Source: a virus. Taken from it: a DNA stretch of 30,965 nucleotides. Position numbers and translations under genes: made by a program. The notes under the pieces were generated by a model. It was not told the DNA's origin. It saw nothing but the letters and a program-made list of their open reading frames with translations, and did not search any database. The stretch lies in IMG/VR virus record IMGVR_UViG_3300021368_002272, positions 1 through 30,965 of that record; one strand, written 5' to 3'. Below are positions 4,123-22,915 of the stretch, one piece after another. Within the stretch, counting starts at the first letter, position 1. The number at the start of each line of letters is the position of its first letter.

Positions 4123-4308
4123 TTATCTCCGATTTTGCAGTTCTTGTTCTTTCAATCTCTCTTCCTCTTCTTTGAGGAATTGAACTAACATGGTAATGTA
4201 AATGTCTTTTTCCCAGGGCATCAAATTTTCAATGTATTCAATCTGCCACTTGTGGTGATGAATTAGTGCAAAATTAGTTTGATAATAAGTCATCAAACTA
4301 GTATGCAT
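4123..4308 (-). CDS. Downstream (-1 frame) part of a putative tail assembly chaperone; T-like extension
   Basis: This is a 61-codon ORF rich in Glu/Arg/Lys at its C-terminus (FLKEEEERLKEQELQ) with an aromatic N-terminal half. Its ATG at 4306-4308 has no Shine-Dalgarno: the bases before it are the T-run and GCGTAGCCCTA. Its frame is -1 relative to the gp26-like gene and is open back to the slippery heptamer at 4320-4326, so a -1 shift would make one protein of about 300 residues (235 from the first frame, four junction codons, then these 61). It ends immediately before the GTG of the tape-measure-like gene. By analogy with lambda G/GT it probably recruits the tape measure. Independent translation as a 61-residue protein remains possible. 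Confidence 0.7.
   Translation of the reverse strand: MHTSLMTYYQTNFALIHHHKWQIEYIENLMPWEKDIYITMLVQFLKEEEERLKEQELQNRR
4275..4300 (-). repeat. Perfect 9-bp hairpin downstream of the slippery heptamer
   Basis: TAGTTTGAT and ATCAAACTA form a perfect stem with an 8-base loop, starting 19 bases after the heptamer on the transcript. It could stimulate frameshifting, although known stimulators usually lie 5-9 bases away. It lies inside the 61-codon ORF. Confidence 0.45.
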
Positions 4309-4313
4309 TAGGG

Positions 4314-5024
4314 CTACGCGAAAAAAGCGGACAGACCCTCAAGAACAATATCATTATCATTCCCAGTATTGGGGTTTGTAACAGTTACAGTATGCTTCAA
4401 TTTAGGCATGGTCTCAAAGAATTCCTGAATTGCCTTAAATTGGGAAGATGTCAACCCATCAAGAAACTCAAGTTTTTCTTTATGAGAAAAATCTGCACAA
4501 TCATACAGTTGCTCCGAATCAGCAACAGTCTTCATGCATTTTGCAGAAACATCGAATAACTGATCAACTCCCGGAACATCATCCATGAAGTTCATTTCAA
4601 CGAATGTTGCAAGGTTAGGATATCCCATAGTGAGGATCATACCATCACCCAACTTAATATCAGTTTTGTGCTTTCTGTCTTTCTGGACTTTAATGTCAGA
4701 AAGGGGAATCGTAGTCTTAACAACAGTCATATTATCATCAGGACAGGTGACATTCACATCAACTTGTTCACCAACAGATCTTTGACGAATTTGAAGGAAA
4801 ACGAACTCGATGTCAAAGGTAGGGAGATCTTCTACATCAACGATATCAGTACATTCTTTAATGATGGTAGAAATTGCTCTCATGATTTCTTCCTGTTCAC
4901 CCATTTCGGTCGCAATCAAAAGAAGTTTTTCTTCCTTTACCAAAAATGGTCTAAAGTTCACAGTTCTGCCATCAGAAGGCAGTTTCATTTTGTACTTGGG
5001 AAGGTTTAACTTAGGTAATGCCAT
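4314..5024 (-). CDS. gp26-like baseplate/tail assembly protein (T4 base plate protein family)
   Basis: The product is 236 residues. The N-terminal pattern FRPFLVKEEKLLLIA, the internal FDIEFVFLQIRQRSVGE and a CP dipeptide shortly afterwards fit the T4 gp26 family (T4 gp26 is about 208 residues). T4 gp26 is listed as a baseplate hub protein. Here the gene lies directly before a short -1-frame ORF and a tape-measure-like gene, so a role as tail assembly chaperone (lambda gpG equivalent) is also plausible. A late box lies 24 bases upstream of the ATG. No convincing Shine-Dalgarno is seen. The last sense codons contain the slippery run described separately. Confidence 0.8.
   Translation of the reverse strand: MALPKLNLPKYKMKLPSDGRTVNFRPFLVKEEKLLLIATEMGEQEEIMRAISTIIKECTDIVDVEDLPTFDIEFVFLQIRQRSVGEQVDVNVTCPDDNMTVVKTTIPLSDIKVQKDRKHKTDIKLGDGMILTMGYPNLATFVEMNFMDDVPGVDQLFDVSAKCMKTVADSEQLYDCADFSHKEKLEFLDGLTSSQFKAIQEFFETMPKLKHTVTVTNPNTGNDNDIVLEGLSAFFA
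4320..4326 (-). promoter_or_regulatory. Putative -1 programmed frameshift site T_TTT_TTC
   Basis: On the minus strand the gp26-like gene ends GCT TTT TTC GCG TAG. The heptamer TTTTTTC sits exactly in the X_XXY_YYZ register used for tandem -1 slippage. After the slip the reading is CGC GTA GCC CTA ATG and runs into the 61-codon ORF without a stop. The zero-frame stop is only one codon further on. Confidence 0.7.
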
Positions 5025-5064: not shown

Positions 5065-5841
5065 TTAATCTAGTTTTGTAGATTCATCATCAAGAACATT
5101 GTCAAGATTACTTGCTCTTACGGATACATTATCATTAGTGAAGAATCTATATCTTTCATAAGTAAATCCGACTGTTATGGTATTCAACCTTGCATCTCTT
5201 TGATTCAATTGAGTAGTTCCGATATTTTGAGGCCATAACTTTCGGATTTCCATACATGAAACAACAGAATTTACTTGAATTTTTTGTCTTCTGCCTTTGT
5301 CGGGAAAAACGACGCCAAGTCTCGAATTTGGATAGGCGTTATTTTCAATCGCTCTTCTATAAACTCCCCCATTAACTGTACCTCTTTCCATTTTATAAAT
5401 TCTCATTCTTCTACAACAATATCCATTATAATCCTCCACATAGTTGTTAGCATCTGCCATAATCATATTCATCCAAGCTTCAAAAAATTGTCTCATAAAT
5501 TGATTTCGAGGCATCTGAAAAGTAATATTAACACTACCATATCCAGTTCCAGTCGCATATTTGGTCGGAACTCCAATGTCCATAACTTGACCACTCATCA
5601 TTTGTCTGCTAGGCATATTAATAGCTGTAGCATAAATATTAATCATTTTGTAAGTATCACCCCTATCCGGTTGCGAAAACAGGGTGTTTCTAGGATCTCT
5701 GCTACCGTTAAATGCCCTAGGGGTAGACATATTAATAAAGAATAGATTAGTAGTGCTTAATCCATTATTATCACTATTAATAAAATTATGTACAGCACTA
5801 TTATTATAATATTCGACTGCGTTTGCTGAAGGGATACCCAT
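5065..5841 (-). CDS. Tail-tube-like protein (gp19/gp54-type fold suspected)
   Basis: The product is 258 residues. The central pattern VNITFQMPRNQFMRQFFEAW followed by MNMIM, and the C-terminal LNTITVGFTYERYRFF, resemble T4-type tube proteins (gp19) and the baseplate tube initiator gp54, in which a conserved FF-AW segment precedes a turn and a final beta strand. The family match is from memory and is moderate. The protein is Asn/Arg rich, lacks a signal peptide and would be cytoplasmic before assembly. The start ATG overlaps the gp4 stop (TAATG), with AAGGAG 11 bases upstream, so the two are translationally coupled. The neighbours gp4, gp48, gp53 and gp26-like support a tail role. A dedicated baseplate protein is the main alternative. 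Confidence 0.65.
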   Translation of the reverse strand: MGIPSANAVEYYNNSAVHNFINSDNNGLSTTNLFFINMSTPRAFNGSRDPRNTLFSQPDRGDTYKMINIYATAINMPSRQMMSGQVMDIGVPTKYATGTGYGSVNITFQMPRNQFMRQFFEAWMNMIMADANNYVEDYNGYCCRRMRIYKMERGTVNGGVYRRAIENNAYPNSRLGVVFPDKGRRQKIQVNSVVSCMEIRKLWPQNIGTTQLNQRDARLNTITVGFTYERYRFFTNDNVSVRASNLDNVLDDESTKLD

Positions 5842-6260
5842 TAGACTTTAAGCTCCTTTTCGGTAATTATTTTAAATTCCCAATTATTATCTTTGCAAAA
5901 TTCTGTAGCTGCCTTCCATTTTGCCTGATTAACACTCCAAGTGACAACTTCATTAATATACCTTTTAGTAACTCTTTTTTGAGTTTTAGGTTCTTTGGTT
6001 TGTTTTAAGGGTTTCACCTCAACCAAATATTTCTGGGATCCGATTTTCAAATAGAAATCTGGAAAATACCTATGTCTTCTTCCGTCAACAGGAGAAATGT
6101 AAGGTATAACAATTTCTTCACTACCCCATTCTAGAATAGATGGTGTAATATCACACCATTTCATAAATTTATACTCCCAAGAAGACCGATATATGATGTT
6201 ATTCACATCTCCTCGATACTTATGGGGGAAGGAAGCTCGGTATCTTCCTTGATATCTCAT
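5841..6260 (-). CDS. 4: Head completion protein gp4 (PD-(D/E)XK nuclease-like)
   Basis: The product is 139 residues (T4 gp4 is about 150). The segment NNIIYRSSWEYKFMKWCD is typical of gp4 homologues. A nuclease-like core follows: RYFPDFYLK, then YLVEVKPLKQ, which together give the D and E-x-K residues of a PD-(D/E)XK/TnsA-type fold. In T4 this protein closes the filled head, with gp50/gp65/gp2, so that the tail can join. The ATG is close behind a divergent late promoter and has no clear Shine-Dalgarno. The stop overlaps the ATG of the tail-tube-like gene. Confidence 0.85.
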   Translation of the reverse strand: MRYQGRYRASFPHKYRGDVNNIIYRSSWEYKFMKWCDITPSILEWGSEEIVIPYISPVDGRRHRYFPDFYLKIGSQKYLVEVKPLKQTKEPKTQKRVTKRYINEVVTWSVNQAKWKAATEFCKDNNWEFKIITEKELKV

Positions 6261-16695: not shown

Positions 16696-17778
16696 TCAAC
16701 CGATGCTAGGAGCAGTCAGGGCCACAGGTGTGGACTCAACTGCTGCAAGATCGAGCGGGAAGTTGTGTGCGTTACGCTCGTGCATGACTTCCATTCCGAG
16801 TCCTGCTCGGTTGAGGATGTCTGCCCAAGTGTTGATGACTCGTCCTTGTGACTCAACGATTGACTGGTTGAAGTTGAAACCGTTGAGGTTGAAAGCCATG
16901 GTCGAGACGCCGAGGGCGGTAAACCAGATTCCCACCACTGGCCACGCAGCGAGGAAGAAATGCAGACTTCTAGAATTGTTAAAAGATGCATACTGGAAGA
17001 TCAAACGACCAAAGTAACCGTGAGCGGCAACGATGTTGTAAGTCTCTTCTTCTTGACCGAACTTGTAACCATAGTTCTGAGATTCAGTTTCAGTAGTTTC
17101 ACGAACGAGTGAAGAAGTAACTAGTGAACCATGCATTGCAGAGAACAGTGAACCGCCAAAGACACCAGCAACTCCAAGCATATGGAAGGGGTGCATCAGG
17201 ATGTTATGTTCTGCTTGGAAGACAAGCATGTAGTTAAATGTACCAGAGATTCCGAGAGGCATTGCATCTGAGAAACTTCCTTGACCAAAAGGATAAACCA
17301 GGAACACTGCTGAGGCAGCAGCAACAGGAGCGGAATATGCCACACAGATCCAAGGGCGCATACCAAGACGGTAAGAAAGTTCCCATTCACGACCCATATA
17401 AGCAAAGATGCCGATAAGAAAGTGAAAGATTACCAGTTGGAAAGGACCGCCATTGTAAAGCCATTCATCCAGAGATGCTGCTTCCCAAATGGGATAGAAG
17501 TGAAGTCCAATAGCGTTGGAACTAGGAACAACAGCACCAGAAATGATGTTGTTACCGTACATGAGAGAACCTGCAACTGGTTCACGAATGCCATCGATGT
17601 CCACAGGAGGAGCACCAATGAAAGCAATGATGAAACAGACGGTTGCTGCGAGCAGAGTTGGGATCATCAGCACACCGAACCAACCGACATAAAGACGGTT
17701 GTTGGTGGAGGTGACCCAGGAGCAAAAGTCTTGCCAAGTGGAAGAACTTCCGCGAGTTGAAAGAGTTGAACTAGACAT
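16696..17778 (-). CDS. psbA: Photosystem II D1 protein
   Basis: The product is 360 residues, full length and uninterrupted (no intron). Conserved blocks include [60 protein letters not shown] and [20 protein letters not shown]. The residue equivalent to D1 position 130 is Glu (GREWELS), the high-light D1:2 type rather than Gln. The C-terminal extension after LDLA is present for CtpA processing. The protein replaces photodamaged host D1 in the thylakoid during infection. It has a sigma70 promoter, a leader of about 160 bases and a strong terminator. No Shine-Dalgarno is seen before the ATG. Confidence 0.98.
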
Positions 17779-18881: not shown

Positions 18882-18992
18882 TCACCAAATACCAGGAATC
18901 ACTTGACCAGTTGCAAGATAGGCTCCGACTGCTGCAACGAATCCAATCATTGCTGCACGACCATTTAGTTTTTCTGCTTTTTCGTTAAACAT
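18882..18992 (-). CDS. hli: High-light-inducible protein, short form
   Basis: The product is 36 residues: MFNEKAEKLNGRAAMIGFVA, then AVGAYLATG and a QVIPGIW end. This is the E-x-x-NGRAAMIGF chlorophyll-binding helix of Hli proteins almost without flanking sequence. It would insert in the thylakoid membrane and pair with another Hli to bind pigment and protect PSII assembly. GAGG lies 9 bases before the ATG, and it starts 10 bases after the longer hli gene. Confidence 0.92.
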   Translation of the reverse strand: MFNEKAEKLNGRAAMIGFVAAVGAYLATGQVIPGIW

Positions 18993-19002
18993 AATAGATA
19001 CC

Positions 19003-19206
19003 TCAGAAGATGCCAAAGAAGAATTTGCCAGTGATAGCATAAGACAGGAAACCAGAAATGATTCCCATCATTGCCCAGCGACCATTGTAGGTCTCAGCGA
19101 ATTGTTGGGGGGATTCAAGTCCCTTACGGTTGTAAGATTCTACCACCATTTGGGGTTCTTTTGCGAACAGATTATTCTGTCCAAATTCGTTTGTTGTAAC
19201 GGTCAT
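19003..19206 (-). CDS. hli: High-light-inducible protein, longer form
   Basis: The product is 67 residues. A soluble N-terminus of about 35 residues precedes AETYNGRWAMMGIISGFLSY and ends FFFGIF. The N-G-R-x-A-M-M-G chlorophyll-binding motif is complete. It is first in a two-gene hli unit with its own sigma70 promoter. It protects photosystem II in the host thylakoid together with phage D1. Confidence 0.92.
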   Translation of the reverse strand: MTVTTNEFGQNNLFAKEPQMVVESYNRKGLESPQQFAETYNGRWAMMGIISGFLSYAITGKFFFGIF

Positions 19207-22105: not shown

Positions 22106-22253
22106 TGGTTCTCCACTCCCGTATATAATCGAGCATTGTAGATATCATCTCATGGGCACCGTCATGCCAGTCACCAGACTTATCACCTCTTGTTCCATCA
22201 TAGAGTTCAGTCTTCATCTTATAGAGTTTTGCCTCTAAATCAATTTTCTTCAT
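22098..22253 (-). CDS. Small protein, 51 residues, coupled to talC
   Basis: The ATG at 22251-22253 overlaps the talC stop (ATGA). The sequence MKKIDLEAKLYKMKTELYDG is followed by GDKSGDWHDGAHEMISTM. The start/stop overlaps on both sides indicate a translated gene in the talC operon. No family recognised. Confidence 0.65.
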   Translation of the reverse strand: MKKIDLEAKLYKMKTELYDGTRGDKSGDWHDGAHEMISTMLDYIREWRTNE

Positions 22254-22915
22254 GATTCCCCTAGGCATGATTGAAGTTCCTTCCAGTCGTTGTCAAATAG
22301 TTCTAAACCCTTATCAGTAAGAATGTGCTTATACATCTTGTAGAATACTGTAATAGGTAAGGTACAGATATCAGCGCCCACTCTAAAGGCAGAGGATACT
22401 TGATGGACATCCCTAACCGATGCAGCAAGAACTTTAGTGTCGATGTGATGCGTTGCAAATACATCTGCAATTTCCTCAATTACTCCAATACCATCAAATG
22501 ACTGATCAAATACGCGACCAACAAAAGGAGAAACATAAGTTGCCCCTGCTTTCGCAGCGAGAATTGCTTGTGCTGAACTGAATATTAAAGTTACATTTAC
22601 TGGTACTTCCTCAGCATGTAATTCGTGACATGCTTTTAGTCCTTCAGGTGTGCATGGAACTTTGATCGTAATGTTTGGTCCAATGTCAAGATATCGCTGT
22701 GCCATATCAACCATCTCCTCAGAAGTATCTCCTACTACTTCGGCAGAAATTGAAGAATTCCATGGAAATATCTGAGATATTTCTCTGATAACTTCTAATG
22801 GATCATGACCCGCTTTAAGCATTAGTGAGGGATTGGTAGTTACACCGTCAATCAATCCCGTCTCAAAAGCATTTGCGATAAGCTCGGCATCAGAGCAGTC
22901 CAGAAAGAGTTTCAT
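22250..22915 (-). CDS. talC: Transaldolase-like protein TalC
   Basis: The product is 221 residues, the short FSA/TalC type. DGVTTNPSLM (about 24-33), the Schiff-base lysine in NITIKVPCT, the VNVTLIFSSAQA strand, YVSPFVGRVFD and a C-terminal ITVFYKMYKHILTDKGLELF are all present. It moves three-carbon units in the pentose phosphate pathway and in cyanophages is thought to redirect host carbon toward NADPH and ribose for nucleotides. AAGGAG lies before the ATG, and upstream there is a -10/late box right behind a terminator. Confidence 0.95.
   Translation of the reverse strand: MKLFLDCSDAELIANAFETGLIDGVTTNPSLMLKAGHDPLEVIREISQIFPWNSSISAEVVGDTSEEMVDMAQRYLDIGPNITIKVPCTPEGLKACHELHAEEVPVNVTLIFSSAQAILAAKAGATYVSPFVGRVFDQSFDGIGVIEEIADVFATHHIDTKVLAASVRDVHQVSSAFRVGADICTLPITVFYKMYKHILTDKGLELFDNDWKELQSCLGES

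Follow-up and report, generated by a model that had tools for sequence, protein, structure and literature searches.

The locus raises the question of how a short reading frame resembling T4 gp51, placed between a gp26-like gene and a very long ORF, is expressed: as a small gene of its own, or as an extension of gp26 reached by ribosomes that slip back by one base. The window, i.e. the whole stretch of viral DNA analysed here (30,965 nt, IMG/VR record IMGVR_UViG_3300021368_002272), had been annotated in a first pass from its letters alone, and a programmed -1 frameshift joining the two frames had been proposed. The coordinates of the features concerned are collected in Table 1.

Table 1. Features of the gp26 locus and its neighbours in the window.
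Feature	Coordinates	Strand	Basis or remark
Putative tape measure ORF, GTG start, at least 1374 aa	1..4122	minus	ORF cut by contig end
-1 frame extension (TAC-C, gp51-like)	4123..4319	minus	translation, phrog_634
Hairpin, 11 bp	4275..4300	minus	19 nt 3' of heptamer; possible stimulator, this lineage only
0-frame stop TAG of TAC-N	4314..4316	minus	
gp26 / TAC-N, 236 aa	4314..5024	minus	PF12322 (T4_baseplate), phrog_150
Slippery heptamer T_TTT_TTC	4320..4326	minus	X_XXY_YYZ register
GAGGG, Shine-Dalgarno-like	4336..4340	minus	9 nt 5' of heptamer; possible stimulator
Tail tube protein, 5' neighbour of TAC-N	5065..5841	minus	phrog_45, E 1.9e-34

The gp26-like gene and its predicted -1 extension

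The product of the gp26-like gene matches PF12322 over residues 9-236 (Pfam E 1.1e-69) and phrog_150 (PHROG E 5.9e-81). The ORF ends GGT CTG TCC GCT TTT TTC GCG TAG, in which T TTT TTC stands in the zero-frame register required for tandem -1 slippage. The -1 frame opens 22 nt 5' of the first base of the gp26 stop and thus spans the heptamer; translated from there it gives FF-RVALMHTSLMTYYQTNF...NRR* (in a longer readout, FF-RVALMHTSLMTYYQTNFALIHHHKWQIEYIENLMPWEKDIYITMLVQFLKEEEERLKEQELQNRR), the first codon of the extension being CGC, which re-reads base 4320, and the last ending at 4123. For the short ORF, the PHROG search gave phrog_634 ('baseplate hub assembly catalyst', i.e. gp51) at E 3.2e-26 and a weak match to the C-terminal end of phrog_150; the predicted fusion, TAC-NC, is about 300 aa long. 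An ATG at 4308, 5 nt past the gp26 stop, could start a separate 61-aa protein; no Shine-Dalgarno-like sequence was seen between the heptamer and this ATG (TTTTTTCGCGTAGCCCTAATG). The exact heptamer, the 61-codon ORF open back to it in the -1 frame and the missing Shine-Dalgarno sequence had all been pointed out in the first-pass annotation, and all three are borne out.

The proposed order of chaperone, extension and tape measure also holds, as the two frames lie between the tail tube gene and a long ORF that is taken as the tape measure because of its position and length. In HTVC008M and Cr30 a putative tape measure is found downstream, one ORF later. By eye, lytic transglycosylase-like and amidase-like stretches seem to be present near the contig-cut end of the tape measure ORF of the window. 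Elsewhere in the window, an ORF (16696-17778, minus strand) reads by eye as photosystem II D1 (psbA), with hli-like small ORFs near it (18882-19206), and another ORF (22250-22915) appears transaldolase-like; psbA-, hli- and transaldolase-like ORFs are host-derived genes usual in cyanophages. The gp4-like head closure protein (5841-6260, minus strand) also matches a TnsA-like endonuclease N-terminal family (Pfam E 9e-24).

Conservation of the frame and the slippery site

The junction was compared across 171 loci with gp26 (the window and 170 others) from IMG/VR and GenBank phages, which were thinned to a non-redundant set of 117 at less than 90% gp26 identity. Each of the three downstream frames of these 117 loci was scanned with a profile built from -1 extensions; it located the C domain in frame -1 at 115 and in another frame at none, figures to be read with the profile being tuned to frame -1 by the way it was built (the extension of the window independently matches phrog_634). 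Where a C domain was detected (115 loci), TTTTTT stands in register at 113; the heptamer is TTTTTTC in 95, TTTTTTT in 16 and TTTTTTG in 2, and the other 2 lack it. The comparison that had been suggested for this junction therefore came out in favour of a conserved site.

At these loci the codon preceding the heptamer's TTT ends in T in 113/113 cases, against a background of about 54% in the same genes, and the next codon is TTT in 113/113, against about 74% of Phe codons, although the 113 were selected for TTTTTT, so that the informative count is 113 of 115. Five different codons supply the first T (AGT, GAT, TCT, GCT and AAT), and since the residue before Phe-Phe varies, the pattern, judged from the aligned loci, goes beyond what protein conservation alone would give. 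The 113 include 46 representatives at less than 65% identity and 15 at less than 50%, and the slippery site holds in all 46 of the former, which were drawn from the 113; the relatives share ancestry, so the counts are not independent and nominal probabilities are too small. Comparison with these relatives indicates that the in-register heptamer of the window is not there by chance. The site is kept in Kyanoviridae, pelagiphage HTVC008M, Caulobacter phage Cr30, Rhizobium phage I1_9, Aeromonas phage Ahp1, Stenotrophomonas phage Mendera and Vibrio phage D486. Scans of viral contigs with an Aeromonas phage gp26 and that of Vibrio phage D486 gave no matches.

The exceptions are few. Vibrio phage D507 and Escherichia phage PhaxI (L086:3690-3760 and L089:3800-3880) also have their C domain in frame -1, but only NTTTTC where the others have an XXXYYYZ heptamer; they represent two distant groups and weigh against slippage on the heptamer as the explanation for the whole family. 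NTTTTC resembles the site of T7 gene 10, and it is possible that these phages use a second kind of slippery site within the same family.

The two loci among the 117 without a C-domain match are a contig cut directly after gp26 (L069) and Stenotrophomonas phage IME-SM1 (KR560069), in which gp26 is annotated as longer (280 aa). Its slippery run has one T fewer than that of Mendera (L087:3700-3740 against L173:1640-1680), which has T TTT TTC and the C domain in the -1 frame; 14 of 14 matching records of other Stenotrophomonas phages are one base longer than IME-SM1 over the aligned stretch, the sequence itself having been viewed for Mendera only. With its run one T shorter than in Mendera, IME-SM1 was not retained as a true exception, and the missing T is probably a homopolymer sequencing error, the alternative being a real loss.

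Possible initiation at a separate start codon

In 68 of the 113 relatives the -1 frame has no ATG, GTG or TTG from where it opens up to position 8 of the domain profile, and after thinning to less than 65% identity 30 of 46 have no usable start. In 50 of the 113 the first ATG lies 19 codons past the heptamer, inside the conserved core, and the motif xALxH, upstream of any possible start, is conserved at the protein level in an alignment of 34 sequences. Ordinary initiation of the short ORF is thus ruled out as a general explanation, and in the phages without a start it cannot make the whole conserved domain. A conserved start with a Shine-Dalgarno sequence, as an independent gp51 gene would have, was not found.

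It is rather unlikely, although not far-fetched, that both routes operate, with the frameshift giving the fusion and coupled initiation giving free TAC-C in the lineages that have a start. Start codons do occur in 45 of the 113 relatives, the window among them, where ATG 4308 makes a supplementary free product possible, but the start codon is not conserved and is therefore not required.

That the downstream ORF is simply an independent small gene (gp51), reached by reinitiation or coupling at ATG 4308 with the T run incidental, is very improbable: database annotations take this form (the S-SM1 and Mendera records each show a separate ORF, that of Mendera even with a ribosome binding site), the ATG is there in the window and the GAGG bias described below is stronger among relatives that have a start (35:6) than among the rest (26:12), but most relatives have no start able to include the conserved domain, conserved residues precede any start, the fixed register of TTTTTT would be left without a reason, and in T4 the N and C domains are fused in one protein.

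Possible stimulatory elements

Two candidate stimulators flank the heptamer, the GAGGG upstream and the structure downstream, and both are offered as leads. Among the 79 Glu-Gly pairs at the GAGGG site, Glu is encoded by GAG in 61; at Glu-Gly pairs elsewhere the figure is 131 of 469. The bias is seen in relatives without a start (26/38, nominal p about 1e-6; 8/13 after thinning, p about 0.013) and is stronger in relatives with one (35/41), so the element may serve slippage, coupling or both. Synonymous resampling of the Shine-Dalgarno match length gave a modest excess (at least 5 bases in 40% against 25%), and the Glu codon bias is the clearer sign of a Shine-Dalgarno-like element. The ribosome binding site annotated for the -1 ORF of Mendera (L173:1653-1656) coincides in position with the GAGG that is favoured also in phages without a start.

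The 9-bp hairpin reported earlier 19 bases downstream is present; its 9 Watson-Crick pairs become 11 when the fold of minimum energy is taken, and z is -2.95 over 101 nt. Across the relatives the position of this stem pairs slightly better, with on average 6.4 of 11 pairs, than six slid controls (3.4-5.6), and downstream structure in general is somewhat stronger (mean z -1.6) than in control stretches inside gp26 (-0.4). Strong stems of the window type, with compensatory changes, occur in only about ten lineages, while other lineages fold different hairpins; a conserved stimulatory hairpin was accordingly rejected, and the hairpin of the window is, to go by this comparison, a lineage feature and not a conserved part of the signal. 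We suggest tentatively, and with rather more doubt than confidence, that the gp26 site of cyanophages and pelagiphages may be a dnaX-like signal of three parts, GAGGG, T TTT TTC and fast-evolving hairpins that turn over from lineage to lineage as the heptamer persists.

Relation to T4 gp26 and gp51

The T4 proteins provide a link between the two frames. T4 gp26 (208 aa) consists of the N domain only, whereas in T4 gp51 (249 aa) PF12322 extends over residues 1-201, phrog_150 matches nearly end to end (residues 3-248) and residues 211-243 match the profile of the -1 ORF (E about 1e-9 in a three-sequence search). phrog_634 likewise matches both the -1 ORF of the window and T4 gp51. By these matches, T4 gp51 is a gp26-type domain with a homologue of the cyanophage -1 ORF as its C domain, although T4 genes 26 and 51 are separate and on opposite strands. 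It follows that gp26 and the predicted fusion would correspond to TAC-N and TAC-NC, the short and the long form of the tail assembly chaperone. Tail assembly in T4 needs gp51, which is not itself part of the particle; a 2010 review (PMC3004832) already listed it, together with gp26, as a hub assembly chaperone. The earlier suggestion that the gp26 family acts as a tail assembly chaperone is thus favoured by the homology of both gp51 domains and by the position upstream of the tape measure.

AlphaFold modelled gp26 well (pLDDT 86) and the C domain, as an all-helical fold, with moderate confidence (pLDDT 75). The BFVD matches of the gp26 model were mostly gp26 relatives, and Foldseek gave no significant match to it in the PDB; among the matches listed, the HK97 chaperone 2OB9 had the highest probability (0.44; E = 1.0, TM-score 0.41 by target length), a likeness of predicted fold that is suggestive only. 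Sequence searches gave no meaningful solved relative, and matches to BRR2 were set aside as chance.

Proposed mechanism

We consider it highly probable that gp26 is TAC-N and that slippage on T TTT TTC yields TAC-NC with its gp51-like C domain, and the frameshift first proposed for this junction finds strong support in the comparative evidence. Most ribosomes would stop at the TAG and produce the short chaperone, while a minority would slip back one base on the heptamer just before it and read on to 4123. If the parallel with lambda gpG/gpGT holds, N domains would cover the tape measure protein and the C domain would bring in the tail tube protein. Very probably, therefore, the phage of the window, a marine cyanophage, makes two forms of one tail chaperone by -1 slippage. 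The ORFs called 'gp51' or 'baseplate hub assembly catalyst' in many cyanophage records are, correspondingly, unlikely to be separate genes, and it is the fusion that calls for annotation.

Comparison with known systems

Frameshifting is reportedly conserved in several T4-like groups, T4 itself being said to use genes 26 and 51. The first-pass annotation had known of no such case in T4-like cyanophages, and this novelty did not stand, as a frameshifted chaperone had been published for T4-like phages in 2022: their chaperone genes were identified by Vladimirov, Gautam and Davidson (2022, Virology 566:9-15, doi 10.1016/j.virol.2021.11.003), a work that is cited in a passage of the Adele paper (PMC12846349) for poly-T slippery sequences in the TAC-N genes of T4-like phages and in a passage of the PRFect paper (PMC10885494) for the fact that in some of them the short and long forms have a gene each. 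The cyanophage slippery site itself was not found described in our literature search, the cyanophage coverage of Vladimirov et al. 2022 lying outside that search. To the published principle the locus of the window makes a modest addition, namely the breadth of conservation, the GAGGG bias and the lineage-specific hairpins.

The slippery site of lambda G/GT is GGGAAAG, unlike the TTTTTTC of the window. The arrangement is otherwise similar, a -1 shift near the end of the short chaperone leading into an extension that lies directly before the tape measure gene (Xu, Hendrix and Duda 2004). To the solved chaperones of the lambda/HK97 type no sequence similarity was detected, and the fold similarity to HK97 2OB9 is weak. 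The E. coli dnaX signal combines a homopolymer-type heptamer with a Shine-Dalgarno-like stimulator some 10 nt before it and a hairpin after it; by comparison, the upstream element of the window type amounts to no more than a biased codon choice, and its hairpin differs from one lineage to another. The chaperone loci of Vandenendeviridae and Andersonviridae, as described in a passage of PMC12846349, have a poly-T site at the 3' end of TAC-N and a -1 extension, as in the window, although these are other phage families with another motif, GTTTTT.

The closest system is that of T4-like phages with TAC-N (gp26) and TAC-NC (gp51), which have the same protein families and the same short and long forms as the window; in T4 the two forms come from separate genes, and in the window from one gene and a predicted frameshift. 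As the frameshift route to the long chaperone appears near-universal in the cyanophage and pelagiphage relatives of T4, it is the separate genes 26 and 51 of T4 that look like the exception.
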